From Thermoanaerobaculia bacterium (GTDB taxonomy: Bacteria; Acidobacteriota; Thermoanaerobaculia; Gp7-AA8), in the NCBI GenBank assembly GCA_017883235.1, contig JADGNY010000064.1:1-38212 (forward strand): a DNA stretch of 38,212 bases, written 5' to 3'. Positions within the stretch are counted from its first letter, which is position 1; each line of letters begins with the position of its first letter. Positions 1-12,740 of the stretch are shown piece by piece. A program made the translations under genes and the position numbers. The notes beneath the pieces are model-generated. The model saw only the letters and a list, made by a program, of their open reading frames with translations, searched no databases and was not told where the DNA came from.

Positions 1-203
1 AATCGGGTGCTAACTGCCGCAGCAGAACGACTTAGCGTCAAAACCGCCGCCGCCGGACGGCCCATCGACCCGCTACCCATTGTAAATACGGCAGTTACGA
101 CCCGGTCCGGCGCGGCCATTCGCCCTCCCCATGGCCTGATCCGAACGATCCCCCACAGAGGACACCCTAAGTCCTTGCTCCTCAGTGGTATCCTGACGCC
201 GCG
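1..203 (+). promoter_or_regulatory. Probable CRISPR leader (left flank of the array)
   Basis: This stretch lies directly upstream of the first repeat and holds no convincing gene. I place the leader here for two reasons. The repeats at the opposite end of the array are the degenerate ones, as is usual at the trailer end, and the repeat ends in TTTAAAAC on the + strand, resembling the 8-nt 5' tag (often ATTGAAAC) of type III crRNAs. The stretch is not obviously AT-rich, unlike many leaders, and I cannot point to a confident promoter. The window begins inside it, so its left boundary is unknown. Confidence 0.4.
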
Positions 204-3200
204 GTCCTCACCGCAGATGGGCACAGAGCCTTTAAAACTTTCCTTTCTCAACTCTTTCAATACCGTTGATTATGCAAAACAGTCCTCACCGCAGATGGGC
301 ACAGAGCCTTTAAAACAGGTCGTTTGTCTTGCAGATGAACTCTTGTACAGAGCGTCCTCACCGCAGATGGGCACAGAGCCTTTAAAACCTTTTGGCCCGG
401 GCACTGTTGCATCAAGTGCGTCCGGAAAGTCCTAACCGCAGATGGGCACAGAGCCTTTAAAACCTTTTCGAACTGCCTATCGAACCTCTTGTTCTGCGTC
501 CTAACCGCAGATGGGCACAGAGCCTTTAAAACAGCAGTGTTCTACGAAATTGAACGTTGCCTTGTACGCCGAGGGTCCTAACCGCAGATGGGCACAGAGC
601 CTTTAAAACTGCGGATCTTGCGATCCACGAGATTGACCGCGAAAGTCAGTCCTAACCGCAGATGGGCACAGAGCCTTTAAAACTAGTACACCGAGCGCGA
701 CGACGAAGAGGAACCCGACGAGTCCTAACCGCAGATGGGCACAGAGCCTTTAAAACATCTCAATCGTGCCTACCCGGGAATCCGACAAGTAAGTCCTAAC
801 CGCAGATGGGCACAGAGCCTTTAAAACGCCGGGACGAAAATGCTTCCGTCCTTATCGACCCAGAGTCCTAACCGCAGATGGGCACAGAGCCTTTAAAACA
901 GCGTTGTCTACCACGGCGAGCTGCAATGCGGCGCTGTCCTAACCGCAGATGGGCACAGAGCCTTTAAAACCTTGTATCCTTGCTCTTGAAGAAGTCGGTC
1001 TTAAGTCCTAACCGCAGATGGGCACAGAGCCTTTAAAACTGGTTGTTTCGGACTTACTGTTGCCGGACAAATGCGTGGCGGTCCTAACCGCAGATGGGCA
1101 CAGAGCCTTTAAAACCGGGGCAACGAGTGGCGGAGCAGTGATGATCCGCTGGTCCTAACCGCAGATGGGCACAGAGCCTTTAAAACGGCGAATGCGGCGG
1201 CGGTGAGCATGGAAATGACGATGGTCCTAACCGCAGATGGGCACAGAGCCTTTAAAACGTTGTTGTAGCTGCTGACGGCTTTCAGCAGCTCAGAAGACGT
1301 CCTAACCGCAGATGGGCACAGAGCCTTTAAAACATATGCTGGAACAGCGAGCCAGACAGAGAATACGAAGCGTCCTAACCGCAGATGGGCACAGAGCCTT
1401 TAAAACTGAGCGAAACATCGCTGAAGGTAACCCCGGAAACTGCTGACTGTCCTAACCGCAGATGGGCACAGAGCCTTTAAAACACCCTTACCAGGCCGCG
1501 AACTCCTGGATGTGGCCAGTCCTAACCGCAGATGGGCACAGAGCCTTTAAAACACTGTTTGGCCTGGCTCTCGAAGGCCGGCACAAGGTTTGCGTCCTAA
1601 CCGCAGATGGGCACAGAGCCTTTAAAACACGGAGCCAACGCCGCCTTGCGTGACCGCGCTATTCGTCCTAACCGCAGATGGGCACAGAGCCTTTAAAACG
1701 TAGCTTGCTGCTTCGTCAAACTTGCCGCTCGGTACCACGGTCCTAACCGCAGATGGGCACAGAGCCTTTAAAACGACATTGGCCGCCTCCGTGCAGAGCG
1801 GCTCGACACGAACGCGAGTCCTAACCGCAGATGGGCACAGAGCCTTTAAAACAAAAGAAGATAGGCGGCGCCCATGAAAGCACAGATAACGTCCTAACCG
1901 CAGATGGGCACAGAGCCTTTAAAACCGTTGAAACAAAGAACAGTTGGTGATCTGTGAGCTGAAGAAGTCCTAACCGCAGATGGGCACAGAGCCTTTAAAA
2001 CTTTTTACCTCTCTTCTGTTGACAAAAAACGGGTGTTGCGGGAAGTCCTAACCGCAGATGGGCACAGAGCCTTTAAAACAGCTTCGTCGCGATGGTCGTG
2101 AGATCGAGCCCGTCTTGTCCTAACCGCAGATGGGCACAGAGCCTTTAAAACGGACACCATCATGAAAACAACGAGAACGAGGTAAGTCCTAACCGCAGAT
2201 GGGCACAGAGCCTTTAAAACATACCGCGGGCGCGGATCGCTTCCAGCTCGAGGATGGTCCTAACCGCAGATGGGCACAGAGCCTTTAAAACGTAAAGCGA
2301 TTTTGGTTGAGACTGAACGCCCCGGTCCTAACCGCAGATGGGCACAGAGCCTTTAAAACTGTTGTCCGCGTCTTTCGTGGCTGCCACGCGTGCGGTCCTA
2401 ACCGCAGATGGGCACAGAGCCTTTAAAACGGGGGTTGCTCTTGTAGACGCTCAGTTTCAGTGACCGCGAGGCGTCCTAACCGCAGATGGGCACAGAGCCT
2501 TAAAAACGGCGATGGCGACCGTCTTCGGGGAAACAACCGGTACTACGTCCTAACCGCAGATGGGCACAGAGCCTTTAAAACAACCGATATAAGCAGTATC
2601 GCAACGCCTAGCGTGGAAGCCCTAACCGCAGATGGGCACAGAGCCCTTAAAACGGAGCGGGGCTGACTGGGCGAATGCGGCGGCGGTGAACAGGGCGTCC
2701 TAACCGCAGATGGGCACAGAGCCTTTAAAACGATAGCGATGAGCTGGCCTCTCCGCATGTAGGTCCGGAGTCCTAACCGCAGATGGGCACAGAGCCTTTA
2801 AAACGAAAGGGCTCGGGATGTCATTGGGATACGAGGCGATCACGTCCTAACCGCAGATGGGCACAGAGCCTTTAAAACCGGGCTTGCAATCGCCCTTGAA
2901 CTTGAATTCCGTGCCAAGTCCTAACCGCAGATGGGCACAGAGCCTTTAAAACGGACGACAGGAACTGGTTAGAGAGGAACAGGAATGTAGTCCTAACCGC
3001 AGATGGGCACAGAGCCTTTAAAACGGTATCGATGTTGGCGTCAGGTGTGGCGGCAACCCGCGCCGTCCTAACCGCAGATGGGCACAGAGCCTTTAAAACC
3101 GCCCAGGCCGGCGACGTGAGCTTGATGTCGCGGAGGGTCCTAACCGCAGATGGGCACAGAGCCTTTAAACCAGAAGATGTTTACGCACCCCTCGCCACAG

Positions 3201-3244
3201 GAGTTCACCGTCGTAACCGCAGATGGGCACAGAGGCTTTAAAGC
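204..3244 (+). CRISPR. Type III CRISPR array, 42 repeats / 41 spacers
   Basis: A 35-nt repeat beginning GTCCTAACCGCAGATGG and ending GAGCCTTTAAAAC recurs 42 times (first 204-238, last 3210-3244). The 41 unique spacers are 33-43 nt long, a range typical of type III. Transcription is probably left to right, because the 3' end gives a TTTAAAAC tag and the right-most repeats have decayed: repeat 41 at 3137 has one change and repeat 42 at 3210 has three. Interior variants occur at 2473 and 2619. The first three repeats (204, 282, 354) share one change, C for A at repeat position 6. The repeat has only a weak internal stem (GGC/GCC around ACAGA). No cas6 is visible to process the transcript, so maturation must use a trans-acting Cas6 or the RAMP proteins themselves. 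Confidence 0.97.
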
Positions 3245-3344
3245 GTGATCGTTCTGGTTGGTCGGAAACATCCGCCGAAGGGCGTCTTCACGCAGATCGC
3301 CACGGGGCTTGGAAAAAAGGCGAGTCTCCGGTTGGTTGAAAATG

Positions 3345-3363
3345 GCCGGACTGAGAGTCCGGC
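3345..3363 (+). terminator. Perfect hairpin in the CRISPR trailer, possible pre-crRNA terminator
   Basis: GCCGGACT, a three-base GAG loop and AGTCCGGC form a perfect 8-bp stem 100 nt after the last repeat and about 150 nt before cas2. There is no U-tract after it, so intrinsic termination is uncertain; it may equally be a processing or pausing site. The remainder of 3245-3513 shows no recognisable gene. Confidence 0.4.
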
Positions 3364-3513
3364 TTACGTAGAGGCGTGCCTTTGGCGATCGCGTGGTGTT
3401 GGGGCGGCAGAGAGGCCGGCGATGCCGGGGTTCAGGATGCGCGATGAGCCTTTGACGGTTCAACGGACGCCGGCGGCGTTGAGCCTTTTCGCAGAGGAGC
3501 AAAGGAGGGAGAG

Positions 3514-3792
3514 ATGAAGTGGGTGATTGCCTACGACATTGACAACGATGGTATCCGGGATCGGGTGGCCCGCATCCTGCTGCGGCATGGACAGCGCGTT
3601 CAGGAGTCGGTCTTCGAGTGTGCGCTCGACGGTGAGGAGATACGGCTCCTGGCCGCGGCACTCTCCGCCGTCCTCGGCTCCACGCATGGGAGCATCCGCT
3701 TTTACCGGTTGTGCCGGGCCTGTCAGCCGGAGGCGTTCGGCATCGGGGAGGTTCGCGCGGCGGCGGCGGGCGGTGATTGGATCATCGCCTGA
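3514..3792 (+). CDS. cas2: CRISPR-associated endoribonuclease Cas2
   Basis: This 92-residue protein is of normal Cas2 length. It has the family's N-terminal beta strand and acidic motif (WVIAYDIDNDGIRDRVA, with Asp8 and Asp10), followed by the typical GQRVQESVFEC segment and the LCRAC motif near the C-terminus. Cas2 dimers bridge two Cas1 dimers during spacer integration. The ATG is preceded by a strong ribosome binding site, AAAGGAGGG. No cas1 lies in the window, although cas1 and cas2 normally travel together. The gene sits at the apparent trailer end of the array and converges on the effector operon with a 59-bp gap. It may work with a Cas1 encoded elsewhere, or be the residue of a lost adaptation module; the reading frame itself looks intact. 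Confidence 0.94.
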   Translation: MKWVIAYDIDNDGIRDRVARILLRHGQRVQESVFECALDGEEIRLLAAALSAVLGSTHGSIRFYRLCRACQPEAFGIGEVRAAAAGGDWIIA

Positions 3793-3851: not shown

Positions 3852-6800
3852 TCACACGATCTTGATCATCCCGATGCGCCAGCGCAGGGCAACGTCCGCT
3901 TCGAGCGTCACCTCGGCGTCGCGTCCCGGCGCGCCGCCGAGATCCTTTTTGAGCGACCCTTCGGTCCCTCTCGCTGCCCGCCGCAGCGTCCCCAACCGCG
4001 GGTCCTCCACCACAAAAAAGGTGTTTCCGTTCCTTTGTTCGCAGCGGACGCGGAGCCGGATCGTCCGGGTTTCTCCCGCGTGCACCGCCGGCGCGATCGG
4101 CGGCAGCGGCTCGGCGGCCTTTACGATAGGTTCCGCCGGTTTTTCATCGACGGTCATTGGTTTCGGCGGCGGCGTTCGAGGCCGTTCGCCACGCGGGTAC
4201 GGCTGATCGAAGCCGCCGTAGAGAGGCGGAAGCGATGTCGACTCCGCCGTCAACGGAATCAGGAACTGGCGCTTGGACCGATCGTTCTGGCCGAACCACT
4301 CGTAGGTTTTCTCCTCAACGTCGGGACCGGCGCAAGGGGTGTGTACGCTGTCAGTGACAAAGCGCGGATCGCCAAGCAATTCGAGCGCACGGCGGATGTC
4401 GGCGTCCATCGTGGAACGGAATGACGAAGCACGATGGGCTGCGGACTTGCCGTCGCTGGGCACGGCACTGTCAGCGGCGCAGTTGCGTTCGACGTTGTAG
4501 CGATCCGGCCAGACGGCCGGCGTTTCGATGCCGGCCAGCCATTTGCGGTGGTACTTCGGAGCGGCAGCTCCGTCCGAGGCATAGCGGCTGCGGCACGCCG
4601 TCAGGAAGATGGCCGCGGTTTCGATGGCAGCCGTGCCGAGCCCGAGCGGCTTGCCCATGCCGAGCTTGTGGCGGAAGTCAGGGGAGGGGGCGAGCGCATA
4701 ACAGAGCAGTCCCAGTTCGGCCTCGCTCAGGTTCTCGAAGTCGATGTGAAAGTAGAAGGCCGTGCCTTCACGGATCGGACGCACGATCGCTTTCTGATCT
4801 TTTTCGGCATCCGGCAACGCCGTGACCCAAGGCTCGCCGGATCCTCGGCCGTGCAGATAGAACTTGCGCCCCTGCGGTGTGTGCCCGCGCAAGCCAAGAT
4901 CCTTCTTCGCGATGTATGCCGGCGTGCCGTCGCGCCGGAAGTACATGTTCGGCGACGGCGGCTTGGGCGACGAGAGGATTTTCAGTTTCTTCTCGTCGTG
5001 CAGCACGCACGCCTGTGGGTCCGCCAGCCGTCCGAATGAAACGACGACGCGTCCGGCCAGAGCCAGGCCTGTGCTGTCGTCCTGCTTGTCCGAGGCACCG
5101 GCTGTTTGCTTCGATTTCTTGCTTTCGACGAAGCCAAACATCTGCTCTGCGATCGTCAGCCATTTCCGGGCAGGGTTGAAGGGCAACAGCTCCGATGAGA
5201 TCTTCTCGAAGAACTCGTATGTCGAGCCGTTGACGCGGTCACGCCAGATCGCCGAAACCGCCAGCCTATCTACGGTCTTGCTGTCGGCGGATAGCTGGAA
5301 GAAGACGAGATCGCCATCGCGCAGGCGCAAGTTGTCGCCGTCGTCCTTCAGACTGGCATTGCGGTTCGAGCCTTTGACGGAGAAGGGAATAGCCATGCGC
5401 TGTCTCTTAGGCCCGGTCACCTTCGCCAATTGCCGCTTCTGCGACTCGGTCCGCTCTTTTGCCAGCTTGTGAAACTCCTCGATGGCTGTGGCGGCGTCGA
5501 GCGCGGCCGTCTTCTCGATGTCCTTTGGATAGGGGATGAAGATTTCGTGCGCCTTTTTCGTGGGAATCTCCGATTCTCGATCGGCGATGCCGAGGATGCG
5601 CAGGATTCCGCGGGTGTATTCCGTGGACGATCCGGTCTTCTTCCACTCGGCCTCTGAGACCGGAGGTGCCTGCAATTTCCCGCTGCGGCCGAGCCGCGCG
5701 TACCAGAATTCGTTTCGGTTGTCTGCCGACCACGACTTTAGGTCCGCAGTGGCGAGGAAGGAGCCGGGCTTGACCTCGAGGCGCGGCGGTTGGGCCCTCG
5801 GCACCTCCTGATATTCATCGACGTAGCTCTTCTGCGGAGCCGCTCCGTTCCGGGTGAGCGACGTCAACGGGCGAATCCTCGTCGCTCCATCGACGATCTC
5901 GCCGATGGCCTGAAGGCTCTGATTGGTCGCGCAGCGATAGGAGTAGCTTTCATCCTCCAGCACGCGCAACGCCGAGTTGCTGGCGGCCTCGGCGACGGAG
6001 GAGAGCAGACCGCGCAACGTGGTGGCAGGAAGGGCGACCTCTCCGTCTTTTTGCTCAGACCCCGCCGACGGCACACGGAAGGGATGGACCTTCGTGTAGT
6101 CGCCCTTCTGTTCCTCGTGCTCCCCGCCGATGACGACCGGACTCTCGGTCTTCAGACGGCAGAGGATGCGTCCGGAGAGCGTTCCCTCCGCGGAGCGCGC
6201 GTGGCCGATGCGGTCGACGGCCTTCGCTTTGAAATCGTCCATGGACACATCCGTGTCTCTCCGGCCGCGTTTTGACGGGACGAAGTGGTACGGGTTGAAA
6301 AAGGCATCGCCACCGCAGGGTGGGGGCGGCGTCAGCGCCACTGCGGGAGCTGAATCTGCTGCCTCCGATGACAGTTGTTTCTCCGGCGTGGCCAGCGACC
6401 GAAGCGCGGCGATGGCCGCGTCGCGCCGGCCGGCATCCGGCCAGCCGATAGTGGCCGTGCACGCGCCGTAGCCTTTGGCCGCACCGAAGCCGAGGGTCAG
6501 ATGGCCTTCCTGGAGATCGCGAAGGGCAAGGGCGAGCAGCCCGAGCGAAGCGGGATCGTTCTGTGCGTCGACGCGCAAGGTGACGTTGTAGTGCGGCTGC
6601 CAGAACGCCTCGGCGTTGAACTTCGCGCTTCCGGCCACGCCTCCTGTGAAGCGGTCGATGGCTACGAGCTCCTGATGAAACGCCTGCGGCCTGTTCGCCA
6701 ACGTGACCGGCGAAAACCCGATGCGGCTGGCCCAGCCGGGAGCGCCGAAGAGCCGGCAGGGAACGCAGAGCTGCTGCAATGCCTCGGCGGGCTCCTCATC

Positions 6801-7835
6801 GGGCCTGAGTTGGAGCTGGCAAGCCGAGGGGCTGTTCGGATCGCAGCACTCCACGCCGAGGGTGCGGGCAATCCGCTCCGCCCGCGCACGAAGCACGCCG
6901 CGCAGCGCCGAGGGCGGAAGGAGAGGCCGGTCCTCGGCATCAACGCGAGGCGCATGATTCGGCTTCGTTGGTTCGTCGTCTGTCCTCGTCCGGCTCGGAT
7001 CGTTGATGAGAAACGGTCCGGAGAATTCGATCGAGAGCGCGATCGGGATCGTGGAGTCGTTGCGGCCTCCGTACCTTTTCTGCAATGACAGTACGGTCGC
7101 GTCGATCTCGGTGCGGACGACGTCACTAGCGGGGGGAAGGCCTTCGTATCCGGACTTCTTGCTGGCGAGCCACGTTGGCAGGCCGGCCGGATCGAGGACG
7201 CGCAGAGTCTCGGACTCCCATGTGAATCGTCCCCAGCCATCGGCGGTGTCGGAGCCGAGGGTGACCGGATCGCCGGCGGCGAAGGCGCGTAGTGCCAGCA
7301 GGAGAAGCGCGATCTCGTCGTCATCGAGATCCTGACCGGTGATCGTGACGTCGAAGGTCACGCCCGGCGGGACGTACTCGCGATGGAAGAGCCGCTTGTC
7401 GGATGCCGTCCGCGTGTAGCGGTCGATGGCCACCGAGGCGGTCACGCCGGTCCGCCGCTTGGGACACCAGTAGGGTGCGTTCACGCCGGTTGTTGCGGGT
7501 TGCGCCGCATCGTCGATGAAGGCGTCGTGGAACTCCGCCTTGCCGCCGGCTGAGCTCTTCCTGTCTTTGTCTTCGAATCCGAAGAGCTGTGCGATGGCTC
7601 CCGCCAGTCCGTGCTCTTCAAGCCACGCGCGCAGCACTCCTTTCAGGCTGGTGCCGGGGAGGTATGGCCGATCCTGATGATCGACAGCCACGGCGGCGAT
7701 CTCAGGATCGTCGCCTTTGCGCTTCCCTTCCGTGATCTTCAAGCCGGGCCGGCTGGTCGTGAGGCCGCTGCCGAGATGAAGGTTGGACCGCGCGGTCAGT
7801 TTGCCGTCGATGCGGATGCGGTTCGTGAACATCAT
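3852..7835 (-). CDS. Type III multi-RAMP fusion: Cas7 (Csm3-like) x2 plus TIGR03986-type RAMP
   Basis: This 1327-residue protein is read as part of the crRNA-binding backbone of a type III effector. Residues 1-225 are a Csm3-like Cas7 domain: Asp42/Asp43 sit where Csm3 carries its RNA-cleaving Asp, followed by YLPGTSLKGVLR and a late glycine-rich WGRF segment. Residues 258-470 are a second Cas7 domain, with LLPPSALRGVLR, a probable zinc cluster (Cys at about 328, 329, 337, 356 and 359, the last two in CVPCRLFG) and the glycine loop GFGAAKGYG. Residues 510-1190 match the TIGR03986 RAMP family: NPYHFVP, LPATTLRGLLSS, LGMGKPLGLG and YEWF. A proline-rich linker leads to a C-terminal domain of about 75 residues that I do not recognise. 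The start is set by the RBS GGGAGGT and a 4-bp ATGA overlap with the gene upstream. Single-gene fusion of these parts is unusual; they are normally separate subunits. Domain identities are from motif recognition only. Confidence 0.9.
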   Translation of the reverse strand: MMFTNRIRIDGKLTARSNLHLGSGLTTSRPGLKITEGKRKGDDPEIAAVAVDHQDRPYLPGTSLKGVLRAWLEEHGLAGAIAQLFGFEDKDRKSSAGGKAEFHDAFIDDAAQPATTGVNAPYWCPKRRTGVTASVAIDRYTRTASDKRLFHREYVPPGVTFDVTITGQDLDDDEIALLLLALRAFAAGDPVTLGSDTADGWGRFTWESETLRVLDPAGLPTWLASKKSGYEGLPPASDVVRTEIDATVLSLQKRYGGRNDSTIPIALSIEFSGPFLINDPSRTRTDDEPTKPNHAPRVDAEDRPLLPPSALRGVLRARAERIARTLGVECCDPNSPSACQLQLRPDEEPAEALQQLCVPCRLFGAPGWASRIGFSPVTLANRPQAFHQELVAIDRFTGGVAGSAKFNAEAFWQPHYNVTLRVDAQNDPASLGLLALALRDLQEGHLTLGFGAAKGYGACTATIGWPDAGRRDAAIAALRSLATPEKQLSSEAADSAPAVALTPPPPCGGDAFFNPYHFVPSKRGRRDTDVSMDDFKAKAVDRIGHARSAEGTLSGRILCRLKTESPVVIGGEHEEQKGDYTKVHPFRVPSAGSEQKDGEVALPATTLRGLLSSVAEAASNSALRVLEDESYSYRCATNQSLQAIGEIVDGATRIRPLTSLTRNGAAPQKSYVDEYQEVPRAQPPRLEVKPGSFLATADLKSWSADNRNEFWYARLGRSGKLQAPPVSEAEWKKTGSSTEYTRGILRILGIADRESEIPTKKAHEIFIPYPKDIEKTAALDAATAIEEFHKLAKERTESQKRQLAKVTGPKRQRMAIPFSVKGSNRNASLKDDGDNLRLRDGDLVFFQLSADSKTVDRLAVSAIWRDRVNGSTYEFFEKISSELLPFNPARKWLTIAEQMFGFVESKKSKQTAGASDKQDDSTGLALAGRVVVSFGRLADPQACVLHDEKKLKILSSPKPPSPNMYFRRDGTPAYIAKKDLGLRGHTPQGRKFYLHGRGSGEPWVTALPDAEKDQKAIVRPIREGTAFYFHIDFENLSEAELGLLCYALAPSPDFRHKLGMGKPLGLGTAAIETAAIFLTACRSRYASDGAAAPKYHRKWLAGIETPAVWPDRYNVERNCAADSAVPSDGKSAAHRASSFRSTMDADIRRALELLGDPRFVTDSVHTPCAGPDVEEKTYEWFGQNDRSKRQFLIPLTAESTSLPPLYGGFDQPYPRGERPRTPPPKPMTVDEKPAEPIVKAAEPLPPIAPAVHAGETRTIRLRVRCEQRNGNTFFVVEDPRLGTLRRAARGTEGSLKKDLGGAPGRDAEVTLEADVALRWRIGMIKIV

Positions 7836-9688
7836 GCACCTCCCTTTGCAGCGGCCAGCTCGATGAACGTGCCCGGTATCGGACGGTTCGCGGTGTGGCA
7901 GGGAAGGTTGACGGCAATCGTCCCGAAGCCGTCGATCGGCAGGAACGGATTGGTCATCCAGTCGCCGCCGTAGCGGTCCTGCGCCCATTTCGGGAGCGGC
8001 AGACCGTGTTCGAGCCAACGCGCCAGCAGCGCTGTAGCGTCCTCCGTCTGACGCAACACGAAAACGCTGCCGCGGTCCGTCAGCAGAAACGCCGCGTAGG
8101 GCTTGTCTCCCTGGAAGCGCTTGTGGAGGTACTCGCCGCCGGCGAGCGATTGCCGCGCGAAATAGCGAACCAACTCCAGTTTCTCAGCGGAGAGTTGTTT
8201 GAAGACGGCGGCGTAGGCAGCGCGAAGTTGCGTCGCACCGCTCGTCTCGCTGAGCTTCCCTGAGTCGCAGAGAAGGGCCGGCGCCTGCAGGGTGATGATC
8301 CACAGGTCTTTCTCGATCGGCGTCAGAAACGATGGAACGTGCTCCGGAAGGATGCTGCCGCTGACCGTGACACGGCCGCGGGCCTTCGATTTGCCGAAAC
8401 CCTGCACACCGGAAGAATTGTTCTCCGCTCGGCCGATCGAGAGAAGAGCGTTCAATTCGGTGAGAAGCTGCGGACGGTCCTCCGCGCCGACCTTGGCCAG
8501 ATCGACCGTGCCGTGCCATTGAAAACCGGCTGGAATGACCATCTCGTACGCGAATAGCTGCTCGTCCTTGGCGCGCCTGGTGTCGGCATCGATAGCGGTG
8601 CGTACGCGCACCTCGCGGCGCGGTGATGTCGCTTTTCCGTCTTCGCCAATCCAGCCGAATGCGGCCTCGACGTCGGCCTGCTGCTTCCAGTCGATGGCGA
8701 ACGACGGCGCCCGAAATTGCTGTTTCCCATCTGCCTCGGACGAGAAGATGATCGGCGCGGCGCACAGCGCCACGTCATGCCATTTGTCGTCCTGATCCTT
8801 GACCAGCGATAGCGGAGCGGTGACGGGACGCTTTGTCACGCCATGCGCAACCGGAGACGCCGCTGTGAGACGGATGGAGTTGAACCACTTCCCGAGCGTC
8901 GTCCATCGCGGAACGGTGCCGTCGATCGGTGCCGAGCCGCGCCGGCCGCCCAGGCTTTGATTGAAGAGCGTGGCCAGGACGCCGCGAATGACCGAACCGG
9001 AGATGATCTCCTCGGATTCAAAGAGATTTTTGGCGACGCGCCGCCTGGCGATGCAGAACGGCTCGACCATCTCGATTTGCAGGCTGAGGATCTCGGGAAC
9101 GATGCCGGCTGCCGGTGTGGCGTCGTCCAGCGATTGCTTGACGAGATCACCGATCGCGACGCCGGCAACGCGGCCGAAGCCGGTGGTCCTTTCCGCGCCG
9201 AAGTTGTTGGTCCAGCGGAATGCGTCTTCGAGCTTGCGGGCCGCCGCGGCGTCGTCGGAAACGTCGTCGCCGGAGAACCAGGCCACTTCCCCTCGGAAGA
9301 CCACCGGCTCGCCGGGCGCGAACGGGCTCTCGATGAATTGCAGGTCCCCGTCGGCGGCGGTTCCCGTCCGGCGATCAATCCGGATGCGGTGCTTGATGCC
9401 GTCGCGATTCCCTTCCCCGGCCACGAAGTCGGAGAAACGGAAGCGTGCCCGGTTGGGTGAACGGTCGCTCTCGGCCTCACCGCCGAACCATTCCTCGTAG
9501 TCGTCCGCACCGGACAAGTCGCGCCACGACTGCAGCACGCGCCCTTTGACCAGCGAGAAGGGCAGCATGGCCTGGCCCGTTTCGTTGCGGGCGATCGTAC
9601 TGTCGATCCCGGGCTCGCCGGCCGCGCTCGACTGGGTGAGGATAGGGCCGGTGAGAGTGAGCGTCACGGGCATGCGAACGTATTTCAT
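7832..9688 (-). CDS. Type III Cas7-Csx10 (Cas5-like) fusion RAMP
   Basis: This 618-residue protein combines two RAMP modules. Residues 1-200 are Csm3/Cas7-like: GIDSTIAR places Asp29 at the position of the catalytic Asp of Csm3, LPFSLVKGRVLQSW is the usual helix-forming motif, and IRIDRRTGTA with NNFGAERTTGFGRV complete the fold. Residues 205-600 resemble Csx10, the Cas5-like signature of subtype III-D: EIISGSVIRGVLA, a glycine-rich loop near GVQGFGKSKARGRV, and a C-terminal stretch with RQSLAGGE and RGSVFVL. Cas5-type subunits cap the crRNA 5' tag, and no other Cas5 candidate is encoded nearby. The ATG overlaps the cas10 stop as ATGA and is preceded by GGAGGTGA, so translation is probably coupled. 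The Csx10 assignment is my inference; the Cas7 half is firmer. Confidence 0.88.
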   Translation of the reverse strand: MKYVRMPVTLTLTGPILTQSSAAGEPGIDSTIARNETGQAMLPFSLVKGRVLQSWRDLSGADDYEEWFGGEAESDRSPNRARFRFSDFVAGEGNRDGIKHRIRIDRRTGTAADGDLQFIESPFAPGEPVVFRGEVAWFSGDDVSDDAAAARKLEDAFRWTNNFGAERTTGFGRVAGVAIGDLVKQSLDDATPAAGIVPEILSLQIEMVEPFCIARRRVAKNLFESEEIISGSVIRGVLATLFNQSLGGRRGSAPIDGTVPRWTTLGKWFNSIRLTAASPVAHGVTKRPVTAPLSLVKDQDDKWHDVALCAAPIIFSSEADGKQQFRAPSFAIDWKQQADVEAAFGWIGEDGKATSPRREVRVRTAIDADTRRAKDEQLFAYEMVIPAGFQWHGTVDLAKVGAEDRPQLLTELNALLSIGRAENNSSGVQGFGKSKARGRVTVSGSILPEHVPSFLTPIEKDLWIITLQAPALLCDSGKLSETSGATQLRAAYAAVFKQLSAEKLELVRYFARQSLAGGEYLHKRFQGDKPYAAFLLTDRGSVFVLRQTEDATALLARWLEHGLPLPKWAQDRYGGDWMTNPFLPIDGFGTIAVNLPCHTANRPIPGTFIELAAAKGGA

Positions 9689-11217
9689 GCCTTCACCTCC
9701 GCCGGCGCCGAGGTCGCGTTCGCGTGCGGTGCGGGGAGGTAATCCCAGAGCTCGGCAAGGTGGAACCATGCCGTGTCGGAGCCGCCGAACGACTTCATCA
9801 GCGAGTCGAACTGCCGGCGGCTTTCGTCGTCCAGAAAGGCGTCATCGACGGTCGTCTTGATGAGGGCTCCGACTTCCTTCGAGGCCCCTTCTTTGCGCAG
9901 GCCGCGGACGATGTCGTGGAGCTTGTTGTTCGGCAGCCGTGCTTTGACGGCAGCAATGGCTTCGCTGACGGTGGCCATCGAGCTGCCGCTGAGGACGAGG
10001 CCTCGCACGCCGGCATCCTTCGGGATGCGGGTCTCACGGAATTTCGCGAGGTTGCCACTGACGAAATCGAATGACTCGAGCACCTGGTAGGCGAATACGT
10101 TGCGGTCGTTCGCGTCTGCATCCTTCGCCACATCCTTGGCAATGCCGGCGAGACCGCGGGACAGCTTTGTAATCCGGTGAATGTTGGCTTTGTGATGGCA
10201 GAAGACGATTCCGCCGGCGTGCGTTAGCGGAGCGTCGCGGAAGTGCCATTTCGCCGACGCTTCGTAGAAGAGCTGCACGACGCGCCAGCCCTGCCACGCC
10301 GGCACGACCCAGATCATTTCATCGCCGCCCCAGAGGAGCGTTTCGAGACGGTAAGGGCCGGCCTTCGGATGGCGGTCTTTTTTTTCTTTGTTGCGATACA
10401 TCCAGTCGGGATCGTCGTCCATCGACTTCAGCAACTGCTCCAGAACGGCCGTCCGGAAGTTGCGGATCGTTCTATCGTAGTCGCGCTGATCCGACGCACT
10501 TCGGCAGAGGCGATTCAGAATCCTGCCGAATTTGTTGCCGTCGAAGTAGATGACCGCCATCTTCGTTTCGAGGTTTTTCCTGGAGGGGTCTTCGCCGGTC
10601 AGCTCGGTGAGATCGTGGACGAAGCCGGTCTCCGCAACATGTTCCGCGGCGGGATCGACGGATCGTTTGTCGCGCCGAAGCTCTCTGAGGTAGAAGGCAT
10701 TCTTCTGCCCTTTTCCGTATGTTCTCCTGGCTATCACCGACGCGCTGGCCGGCTCTCCGCTCTCCTCCGCTGTCGCAGGGCGGATCAGGTCAAACTCGCA
10801 GCAGCCTCCCTTCTGCGATGGCGACGGCACAGCCAGAGAAGGAGACGTCATCTGTTGCCAGCGATTGAGCGCGATCAATGACTCGCGGTCGCGGATGAAG
10901 TCGTCTGAGGCCGGGATGATGTCGACAGCGATCGTGGCATGTCGCAGCGCGTCATCCTTGTGAAAGTCGTCGACAAGATCGGAGCAGAGCTGCTTCGCTT
11001 CGTCGTCGCTGCAATTCACATCAAACAGGCCTGACGAAGCGCCGGTGGAGACGGGGTCAATGGCGATTCCTCGCTTTTCAGCAACGCTTTGTACGCGAGC
11101 GGGAACGCCGAGCATCAACAGCCCGCCGCCGCGGACCGTGCTGAGGTCCTGTACGTCCTCTACGAAGTTCCCGAGATTGACGCCCTCGACGCGGAGGCGA
11201 TAGTTCGTACGCGGCAT
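9685..11217 (-). CDS. cas10: HD-less Cas10, type III CRISPR large subunit with GGDE palm
   Basis: This 510-residue protein is much shorter than the roughly 700-1000 residues of most Cas10 proteins, because the N-terminal HD nuclease domain is absent. The N-terminus (to about 110) looks like a reduced first palm domain. The second palm carries the metal-site motif YFDGNKFGRIL near residue 227 and WGGDEM near residue 296, a GGDE form of the GGDD cyclase motif. HAGGIVFCHHKANIH and the following AK-rich helix are also Cas10-like. The C-terminal 100 residues are helical, as in the Cas10 D4 domain. Cyclic oligoadenylate synthesis is plausible; DNA cleavage by an HD domain is not. The start at 11217 follows AAGGAG; an upstream in-frame ATG at 11298 lacks support. 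It is the first gene of the operon, and its stop overlaps the next start. Confidence 0.9.
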   Translation of the reverse strand: MPRTNYRLRVEGVNLGNFVEDVQDLSTVRGGGLLMLGVPARVQSVAEKRGIAIDPVSTGASSGLFDVNCSDDEAKQLCSDLVDDFHKDDALRHATIAVDIIPASDDFIRDRESLIALNRWQQMTSPSLAVPSPSQKGGCCEFDLIRPATAEESGEPASASVIARRTYGKGQKNAFYLRELRRDKRSVDPAAEHVAETGFVHDLTELTGEDPSRKNLETKMAVIYFDGNKFGRILNRLCRSASDQRDYDRTIRNFRTAVLEQLLKSMDDDPDWMYRNKEKKDRHPKAGPYRLETLLWGGDEMIWVVPAWQGWRVVQLFYEASAKWHFRDAPLTHAGGIVFCHHKANIHRITKLSRGLAGIAKDVAKDADANDRNVFAYQVLESFDFVSGNLAKFRETRIPKDAGVRGLVLSGSSMATVSEAIAAVKARLPNNKLHDIVRGLRKEGASKEVGALIKTTVDDAFLDDESRRQFDSLMKSFGGSDTAWFHLAELWDYLPAPHANATSAPAEVKA

Positions 11218-11366
11218 GACATGGCTCCTTCCGGCAAACGTGCCGGTACTCCCCGGCTGTTCGCAGCGGCACTCTTCGTCAATGCGATCATTAATCATAT
11301 GGCGGTGCGGTCACAATCATGGCTGCCAACCGCGCAACCCCGTAACCGCGCTATCCTCAAACCACG
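11218..11366. promoter_or_regulatory. Divergent promoter region of the cas operon and the kinase operon, with a hairpin next to the cas10 RBS
   Basis: The 149-bp gap separates the divergent cas10 and kinase starts and must hold both promoters. A relatively AT-rich patch lies near 11285-11302, but I cannot assign -35 and -10 boxes with confidence. CCGGCA-AACG-TGCCGG at 11231-11246 forms a 6-bp stem with a 4-nt loop directly upstream of the cas10 ribosome binding site. It could affect translation initiation of the effector operon. Confidence 0.4.
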
Positions 11367-12740
11367 ATGCCCAATCCTCTCGGACTCGGGCCCGGTACGG
11401 TGCTCGATGGTAAGTACGAGATCCTCAATCGCCTCGGCGGGGGAGGGATGGGAGACGTCTTCAAGGCCAAGCACCTGCATCTCGATGTCTTTCGCTGCAT
11501 CAAGGTGATGAAGGAAGGGATGATGTCGGACGCCGGCTATCGCGCCCGTTTCCTGCGCGAGGCGCGGATGGCCACGCAGATTCACCATCCCAACATCGCC
11601 GTCGTCCACGACTTCTTCATCGGCGACGGCGGCAGCTACATGGTCACAGAGTTCATCGACGGTACGACCGTCCGGCAGTGGAGCGCCGCGCATGGACGCT
11701 TCCCCCTGGCCCTGGCCGCAGACGTCGCCGTGCAGGTGCTGGCCGGACTCGATCACATCCACCGCCGGGGCTTGCTGCATCGCGACATCTCCGCCGACAA
11801 CGTGATGCTTTCGTATGACGCCGACGATCACCTCGTCGTCAAGATCATCGACCTCGGCATCGCCAAGGACGTCAACACGCCCGCGAGCGAGATGGCCACG
11901 CAGGCAGGAATCCTGATCGGCAATCCGAAGTACATGTCGCCCGAGCAGCTTGGCAGCATCGAGGACGGTGAGCAGCTCGATGGCCGCGCCGATCTCTACG
12001 GCCTCGGCGTCGTGCTCTACGAGATGCTCCTAGGCGTGCCGCCGTTCATCAGCGAAACGCCGCAGGGCTACATCATGAAACACCTCACCCAGCCGCCGCG
12101 CCGCTTTCGCGAAGCGTCGGCTGGCGACGACTGGCCGGCCGGCCTCGAAGCCGTGATCTTCCGCGTGTTGGAGAAAGACCGCCGGAACCGTTACGCCGAT
12201 GCGCGCGAGATGGCTGCGGCGCTGCAGCCGTTCCTCAGCGCTCCGGCCGGGACGCTCACGCGTGATGCGGTAAACAATATCCGCCGCGGACCGGACCAGA
12301 CGCTCGCCGGCGCGACTCCTGTCGATACCACCGATGCCAGAGCGCGGATGTTCGAGTTGTCGCTCATCGAAACTGTTCGCGCGAAAGAAGCCGAAGGCGA
12401 TCGCCAGGCCCTGCAACGGCTCGCGGAGGCGCATCCCCGAGGAACGCCGGTCGGCGACGCCGCGCGCGAGGCACTTGCGCGCGTCGGCCGCGGAGAAGAC
12501 GAGGAGGCCGTCTTTCAACAGACGTGGGAGTCAGGCACCTCGGCGGCCTGGCAGCAGTTCATCGCCGCACATCCCAACTCCGTGCACGCCGAGGAAGCGA
12601 GGCGCTGCCGTCAGGAAGCCGTCGACTTCGAGCTGGCTCTTGCCACCGACACCGCCACGATGTGGCGCGCGTTCGTCAAAGCGTGGCCCGAGGGCCGGCA
12701 CCGGCTGGATGCGGATATACGCCTGCGGGCGAAGAAGTAG
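11367..12740 (+). CDS. Hanks-type serine/threonine protein kinase, cytoplasmic
   Basis: This 457-residue protein has a complete bacterial Ser/Thr kinase domain at residues 16-285: glycine loop LGGGGMGDVF, the ATP-binding lysine in CIKVMK, catalytic loop LHRDISADN, metal motif DLG in place of DFG, and GNPKYMSPEQ in the P+1 loop. HRDIS replaces the common HRDLK and is seen in other bacterial kinases, so activity is expected. Unlike PknB it has no transmembrane helix. The C-terminal 170 residues hold two loosely repeated helical units with W..F and P spacing, possibly TPR-like. No clear ribosome binding site precedes the ATG. The next gene, 21 bp downstream, encodes an FHA (phosphothreonine-binding) protein, which makes a natural substrate or partner. 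Confidence 0.93.
   Translation: MPNPLGLGPGTVLDGKYEILNRLGGGGMGDVFKAKHLHLDVFRCIKVMKEGMMSDAGYRARFLREARMATQIHHPNIAVVHDFFIGDGGSYMVTEFIDGTTVRQWSAAHGRFPLALAADVAVQVLAGLDHIHRRGLLHRDISADNVMLSYDADDHLVVKIIDLGIAKDVNTPASEMATQAGILIGNPKYMSPEQLGSIEDGEQLDGRADLYGLGVVLYEMLLGVPPFISETPQGYIMKHLTQPPRRFREASAGDDWPAGLEAVIFRVLEKDRRNRYADAREMAAALQPFLSAPAGTLTRDAVNNIRRGPDQTLAGATPVDTTDARARMFELSLIETVRAKEAEGDRQALQRLAEAHPRGTPVGDAAREALARVGRGEDEEAVFQQTWESGTSAAWQQFIAAHPNSVHAEEARRCRQEAVDFELALATDTATMWRAFVKAWPEGRHRLDADIRLRAKK

Follow-up and report, generated by a model that had tools for sequence, protein, structure and literature searches.

A CRISPR (clustered regularly interspaced short palindromic repeats) array at the start of contig JADGNY010000064.1 of a Thermoanaerobaculia bacterium (assembly GCA_017883235.1; the whole stretch analysed, 38,212 nucleotides (nt), is called the window here) contains two spacers, 14 and 34, that overlap on the same sequence. 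These spacers probably record two separate encounters with related, non-identical mobile elements, which were sampled at overlapping homologous positions of the same gene and on the same strand; we put the probability of this reading at roughly 0.6. The two spacers share the run GGCGAATGCGGCGGCGGTGA, which is identical at 20 of 20 bases and lies in the same orientation in both. The overlap continues for 7 nt past this 20-mer, where four bases agree and three differ (overlap positions 21, 24, and 27), such that 24 of the 27 columns are identical. The overlap is offset by 16 nt relative to the repeat edge, the outer parts of the two spacers are unrelated, and 19 other spacers lie between them in the array. 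A sequence-only reading of the window had reported the 20 identical bases, their orientation, and a slight divergence following them; the run is present at exactly the coordinates it gave, and the divergence corresponds to the three differences in the next 7 nt.

Two features of the overlap bear directly on its origin. The overlap is out of register with the repeats and is therefore not a duplicated spacer-repeat unit, and the presence of three differences within the last seven shared columns indicates that the spacers do not derive from one molecule sampled twice. Duplication inside the array by repeat recombination, followed by drift, has a precedent in the host genome in the form of one 33-nt spacer that occurs twice in a second CRISPR locus on contig C68. 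In spacers 14 and 34, however, the register is not kept: the common stretch lies at the very start of spacer 14 (from base 1) and well inside spacer 34 (from base 17), with unrelated sequence outside it, and the offset already refutes this origin.

The possibility that two GC-rich spacers are identical by chance was evaluated by comparing all 820 spacer pairs on both strands, for which the second-longest common run is 9 nt. The null consisted of 800 sets of 41 real genomic fragments matched to the spacers in length and GC content, with exact copies of the 20-mer masked and one locus (L057) left out. The longest common run reached at least 15 nt in 2 of the 800 sets and at least 16 nt in none. 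An earlier null of 400 sets without GC matching gave runs of at least 15 nt in 10 sets and of at least 20 nt in one, from a pool that included two loci with the same sequence around the site (L035 and L057) and unmasked loci chosen for carrying the 20-mer. In favor of chance, the 20-mer is commoner than a random word, as exact matches were found in 23 stretches among 84,980 genomes (257 Gb), about 50 times the approximately 0.5 expected (by hand) for a uniform random 20-mer. Nevertheless, among 60 genomes (59 relatives and the host itself) the exact 20-mer occurs twice in this array and once in the genus-mate G002, and from this single match in approximately 0.25 Gb of relatives' DNA the odds of another spacer of the array carrying it were estimated by hand at about 3e-6. 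Chance is consequently rejected as the origin of the overlap, being very improbable and close to refuted. A second candidate pair, spacers 30 and 39 (ARVAATKDAD and ARVAATPDAN, the second-best translated pair), was dropped because its score was reached by 130 of the 800 null sets. The sole viral contig found with this peptide (L073) was dropped as well, since the long open frame at that place runs on the other strand; the site resembles what we take to be a phage lysozyme-type (SLT) motif.

The sequence-only reading had proposed a search of databases, in which one gene with alleles matching each spacer would support its view. No protospacer for either spacer was found in phage, plasmid, viral-contig, or relatives' DNA. 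Searches of phage records with each spacer alone gave best E-values of 0.06 (spacer 34) and 0.5 (spacer 14), neither of which is convincing, and when the native array stretch served as query, 50,697 phage records yielded five matches at E = 0.9 and 72,556 plasmids yielded none. The exact 20-mer is present in none of the viral contigs, and full spacers allowed up to three mismatches matched only the array itself among 148 genomes of the class, the host included. Comparison of the array with the 60 genomes gave three weak matches besides the array. One covers approximately 30 nt, mostly of spacer 7 (684-721), in a class-mate (G026:C99:3576-3605) at 93% identity, with E = 2e-4 for one genome, and may be nothing. 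The second is a 24-nt match at 96% identity (E = 0.008) that runs from the end of spacer 34 into the repeat that follows, and the third comprises the 20-mer plus 2 nt of spacer 14 in G002 (E = 0.009). Neither the 23 genome stretches nor the matches in relatives extend into the flanks of the spacers: in spacer 34 at most 9 of 16 bases match 5' of the 20-mer and at most 5 of 7 match 3' of it, and in spacer 14 at most 10 of 17 match 3' of the 20-mer. Among 33 sites compared outside the array, the best match to the whole of spacer 34 is in Corynebacterium (L068; 34 of 43 bases). Spacers linked to reverse transcriptases (RTs) are described in PMC5513706 as lacking findable targets.

Since the protospacer was not found, the assignment of the two spacers to related elements rests on exclusion. 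Four further points also weigh against it. The shared word is GC-repetitive (GCGGCGGCGG), and 23 genome stretches carry the 20-mer with no link to spacers 14 and 34. Near-copies with at most one mismatch occur in 7 of 17 genomes of the host genus or family compared with 4 of 42 other relatives, such that a host-like composition may favor this word. The array has no second overlapping pair, its other spacers sharing no more than 9 nt with one another. Finally, the strand classifier described below is right on approximately 74% of 38-nt fragments at best, an optimistic figure, and was trained almost wholly on bacterial genes.

The strand on which the spacers would be coding was examined through their reading frames. 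The sequence-only reading noted that both spacers are open in the same frame (ANAAAV) and took this for the coding frame. The frame is indeed open in both; however, spacer 14 is open in five of six frames and spacer 34 in four of six, and four registers are open in both, so the openness of the ANAAAV frame says little. With ANAAAV as the frame, each of the three differences affects a second codon position and would replace a residue (S/N, M/R, and E/A). In the mirror antisense frame (IVISMLTAAAFA in spacer 14 and ALFTAAAFAQSAPL in spacer 34) the differences fall at first positions and would give L/F, M/L, and S/A, changes that appear mild and lie within a predicted hydrophobic stretch ending in AFA|Q like a signal peptide. 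All three differences (overlap positions 21, 24, and 27) are in the same codon phase, for which the chance is 1 in 9. Of the remaining frames, the antisense frame PCSPPPHS has synonymous changes in the two complete codons touched and is poor in third-position G+C (counted by hand), and the sense frame GECGGGE has a stop in spacer 34; neither is preferred or rejected.

A three-periodic Markov classifier trained on genes from the loci of this analysis was used to call the coding strand. In cross-validation on 38-nt fragments the strand was called correctly for 72, 74, 73, and 69% (orders 1-4), values that are optimistic because they were measured on the 78 of 119 genes that passed the classifier's own filter. 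A first, unfiltered version had reached 62% and was rebuilt with the filtered genes. The probability of the sense strand for orders 1-4 was 0.22, 0.09, 0.12, and 0.08 for spacer 14 and 0.14, 0.08, 0.15, and 0.18 for spacer 34. As both spacers are called antisense, the coding strand is probably opposite to the spacers as written, and the CRISPR RNA (crRNA) would pair with the mRNA. Consequently, the ANAAAV frame is probably on the wrong strand, and the orientation suited to RNA targeting that the sequence-only reading attached to it belongs instead to the antisense frame. Its broader proposal, that homologous coding positions of related mobile elements were sampled, is retained with respect to two acquisitions from homologous positions of non-identical elements, mostly by exclusion, and is not supported with respect to the frame and orientation.

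The signal-peptide character of the antisense frames raises the possibility of convergence, in which different secreted proteins with no common ancestry have GC-rich signal peptides (TAAAFA) that are encoded by the same 20 nt. Codon-degenerate patterns, which were built for the antisense frames and not for the ANAAAV sense frame, matched 0, 0, 1, 15, and 16 viral contigs. As protospacers these matches were rejected, the best having 10 mismatches of 37 for spacer 14 (L084) and 14 of 43 for spacer 34 (L083), with the agreement partly forced by the pattern. The viral contig L083 encodes MKTAIRSLAAFLILTAAAFAQSAPG..., a convincing predicted signal peptide close to the ALFTAAAFAQSAPL of spacer 34, in a secreted protein with no relative in the viral contigs but itself. 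The octapeptide AFAQSAPL, shared with the antisense peptide of spacer 34, is found in 16 viral contigs. In 13 of them (L102-L108 and L111-L116, several near-identical) it lies just after a hydrophobic stretch in one phage protein family, whose residues upstream of the octapeptide differ from those of the spacer. The motif AFAQSAPLKYDS and what looks like a signal peptide (MLRLLLAALATAW...) are present in this family. In the two members examined (L106 and L112) the gene has portal, terminase, and head genes in its neighborhood, and in L112 it adjoins the portal gene; no homologue was found in the phage records searched. Spacers of both arrays compared with these contigs gave a mean mismatch of 0.403, marginally better than the 0.414 of letter shuffles, and the best single spacer is spacer 7 at 0.289 (11 of 38 mismatches) compared with 0.314 in shuffles. 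Because the peptides served as search patterns, the agreement of L083 and of the AFAQSAPL family is largely built in, and both were kept as leads only and not taken as protospacers.

These recurrent endings, together with the resemblance of both antisense frames to signal-peptide ends and the greater frequency of near-copies in the host genus and family, speak for convergence. In contrast, the AFAQSAPL codons in viral contigs differ from those of spacer 34 at most third positions, whereas spacers 14 and 34 are identical at all 20 bases. Furthermore, the exact 20-mer is absent from the viral contigs and from the host genome outside the array, where no copy was found with up to one mismatch and two places were found with two, and the flanks of the near-copies in relatives, like those of the one exact copy, resemble neither spacer. 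Convergence is thus considered rather unlikely, and acquisition from two related elements remains the preferred explanation.

The relative age of the two spacers depends on the direction of the array. Changed repeats are scattered towards the high-coordinate end (2473, 2619, 3137, and 3210), where the last repeat has three changes and is followed, beyond 3244, by a further and more decayed repeat-like stretch to approximately 3315 (by eye). The low-end repeats are uniform, and the first three share an identical variant (GTCCTCACC), which looks as though a change in the first repeat had been passed on by copying. The decay at one end and the shared variant at the other are consistent with a leader at the low end and a trailer beside cas2. 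The last eight bases of the repeat, TTTAAAAC, resemble the usual type III 5' handle. At contig C68 a similar leader end precedes several mini-arrays, which read GTCCGAATG...ATTGCGAC. Counting against a leader at the low end, the opposite reading would end the repeat in GTTAGGAC, not unlike ATTGCGAC, and no sigma-70-like promoter was found in 1-3600. It is thus likely, and not proven, that the array is read from the low-coordinate end. The changed repeats towards the high end suggest that spacer 34 is probably the older of the two.

Taken together, the overlap and its differences are consistent with the following course of events. Spacer 34 would have been acquired from one element and, some 20 acquisitions later, spacer 14 would have been taken from a relative of that element at a 16-nt offset. 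Transcription from the low-coordinate end and processing would then yield crRNAs that carry the spacer sequence as written and start with UUUAAAAC followed by the spacer. Based on the antisense call and on established type III biology, these crRNAs would most likely anneal to an mRNA encoding a secreted or membrane protein, at the point where the signal peptide ends (...TAAAFA|Q...), and activate a type III-D-like complex, with spacer 14 renewing cover over a region in which the newer element differed. Were one related group of approximately 45-kb elements the source of all spacers, about 0.3 overlapping pairs would be expected among the 820 (by hand), and far fewer otherwise. One overlapping pair is mildly surprising and by itself demands no hot spot.

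The antisense call is not confined to this pair. Cross-validation was best at order 2, for which 32 of the 41 spacers are called antisense, compared with 22.6 +/- 3.0 in dinucleotide shuffles, none of 500 of which reach 32. Orders 1, 3, and 4 give 28, 31, and 28 of 41, a retrained set gives 29, 29, and 31 (orders 1-3), and the first, poorer classifier gives 28 of 41 here and 27 of 53 at contig C68. The C68 spacers lean antisense less clearly, with 32, 33, 30, and 27 of 52 at orders 1-4 and 27-35 of 52 across settings; at order 2 the shuffles give 28.0 (P of approximately 0.1) and the confident calls run 25 to 9. Arrays beside relatives of the RT-Cas1 fusion discussed below show no clear bias, with 5 of 8 and 10 of 17 spacers antisense at order 2 and 3 of 8 and 9 of 17 at order 3. 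This excess, 28-32 of 41, lies in the orientation required by a type III effector. According to PMC7515739, selection by itself yields a bias of this kind, and PMC5576922 reports that acquisition by the Marinomonas RT-Cas1 without interference is only marginally antisense, a weaker excess than the one found here. The excess is therefore evidence for a working RNA-targeting array and not for oriented acquisition.

A single Cas1 was found in the genome, as part of a Cas6-RT-Cas1 fusion on the minus strand at the very edge of contig C212 (L075:1-2778), where its 3' end runs off the contig. A single frame contains a Cas6 domain (residues 139-273; 23.8 bits, just under the cut-off of 25), RVT_1 (343-547), and Cas1 (618-892), and the host genome thus has the RT fused to Cas1 by which RT-CRISPR systems are recognized. 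Two relatives (L123 and L124) carry the same fusion with a cas2-like frame (by eye) and then an array behind it in the same direction; in a third (L125) the fusion precedes a cas2-like frame and a short cluster of repeats. The contig of the array begins 203 nt before the array, and the two contigs may be neighbors; the array may use this fusion. Such machinery might sample an abundant transcript near its 5' end, so that overlaps would be expected, and the signal-peptide-like nature of the shared stretch, near the 5' end of a gene, and the array-wide antisense excess fit this idea. However, a single overlapping pair among 820 does not make a hot spot, the 53 spacers at contig C68 have no overlap besides the exact duplicate, and none was found among the 8 spacers of L123 or the 17 of L124. 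The fusion also lies on a contig other than that of the array, and selection alone could yield the same excess. A preferred acquisition site is for these reasons unlikely, and its specific form, RNA-derived acquisition that prefers the signal-peptide 5' end of an abundant mobile-element transcript with antisense insertion by Cas6-RT-Cas1, is distinctly improbable. If it were true, selection would account for only part of the antisense excess across the array, and the rest would be intrinsic.

Acquisition from two related elements requires no new kind of system, as overlapping spacers are already known though rare. PMC3468723 describes them as rare in natural Sulfolobus CRISPR loci, where the spacers of one organism likewise cover overlapping parts of a target. 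Those overlaps differ in that their ends are anchored on the protospacer-adjacent motif and they come from one element, whereas the copies in spacers 14 and 34 differ and are separated by 19 spacers. The RT-associated adaptation modules of Marinomonas mediterranea and Arthrospira resemble that of the host in that the one Cas1 found there is joined to an RT and a Cas6-like domain, and differ in that the fusion of the host is on another contig and its use by this array is putative. No report recognized as describing this array was found in the literature searched. When overlapping spacers stem from diverged alleles, they document that a host met one relative of an invader after another, and the pair amounts to a small internal test of whether spacers enter an RNA-targeting array at random or from preferred sites. 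The by-product, strand bias, may be more useful than the pair itself. It allows the coding-strand bias of orphan spacers to be estimated without identification of any target, and the origin of the spacers of RT-linked arrays, as well as whether their orientation is imposed or selected, becomes testable on many genomes.

Table 1. Features of the array and its neighborhood in the window.
Feature	Position	Strand	Details
CRISPR array, 42 repeats and 41 spacers	204-3244	+	repeat 35 nt, GTCCTAACCGCAGATGGGCACAGAGCCTTTAAAAC; spacers 33-43 nt
Putative leader side of array	1-203	+	contig begins at position 1
Spacer 14, 37 nt, probably the younger of the pair	1187-1223	+	antisense frame IVISMLTAAAFA
20-mer copy in spacer 14 (spacer bases 1-20)	1187-1206	+	
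Spacer 34, 43 nt, probably the older of the pair	2654-2696	+	antisense frame ALFTAAAFAQSAPL
20-mer copy in spacer 34 (spacer bases 17-36)	2670-2689	+	
Decayed repeats at trailer end	3137-3244	+	1 and 3 mismatches
cas2	3514-3792	+	TIGR01573 48.2 bits (cut-off 24.5); PF09827 65.8 bits (cut-off 23.8)
Fused Cas7 (RAMP) effector subunit, 1388 amino acids	3852-8018	-	TIGR03986 314.1 bits (cut-off 161.35); PDB 9wxh_D E = 5e-157 over 67-1248
Csx10-like Cas5/Cas7 subunit of type III-D	7832-9769	-	PADLOC PDLC01408 (III-D G5 model) E = 1e-79; TIGR02674 26.7 bits, below cut-off 177.3
Cas10	9685-11298	-	PF22335 32 bits (cut-off 27); PADLOC Cas10 E = 1e-35; PDB 9wxh_B E = 6e-70
178-amino-acid frame directly upstream of cas10	11295-11831	-	no match in NCBIfam, Pfam, PADLOC

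The effector genes beyond the trailer (Table 1) are predicted to form a type III-D-like locus. The largest protein contains two RAMP stretches (Pfam), and several Cas7 models match different parts of it. Assignment to type III-E (gRAMP/Cas7-11) was rejected, as model NF041225 scores 162.9 bits against a cut-off of 700 and a Cas10 is present. The locus resembles the type III-D complexes of PDB entries 9wxh, 9wxi, and 9wxj in having Cas10, putative Csx10-like, and fused Cas7 (TIGR03986) subunits, and its proteins differ from those of 9wxh by their own sequence. The III-Dv system of Synechocystis (PMC11026444) is a further type III-D system with fused Cas7 subunits. The 28-nt core of the repeat has no other copy in the 6.92-Mb genome with up to three mismatches allowed.

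The second CRISPR locus of the genome (C68, 5402-14928; L081 and L080) comprises 10 mini-arrays with a total of 63 repeats and 53 spacers, between which lie nine modules of 485-759 nt. Several modules have cas2-like frames, intact or decayed (by eye), and a similar leader end precedes six of the mini-arrays; the locus apparently consists of tandem cas2-leader-mini-array units. The longest frame of the module at 9995-10753 is not cas2-like and resembles what we assume to be a PIN-like protein of the DUF5615 kind. Beside the locus are a Cas10 with 48% identity to the Cas10 of the window and a frame of 1957 amino acids.

A further observation concerns the ends of spacers beside a relative of the Cas6-RT-Cas1 fusion (L124, G060:C240; arrays at approximately 106-890 and 4791-5350). 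Fourteen of its 17 spacers start with C?T{1,3}CT, a pattern chosen post hoc, and the first five bases of its spacers are 89% pyrimidine compared with 52% in the remainder. The same start is found in 3 of 8 spacers in L123, 2 of 53 at contig C68, and 0 of 41 in the array of the window. The pattern in L124 may reflect tailing by the RT or a preference for certain sites.

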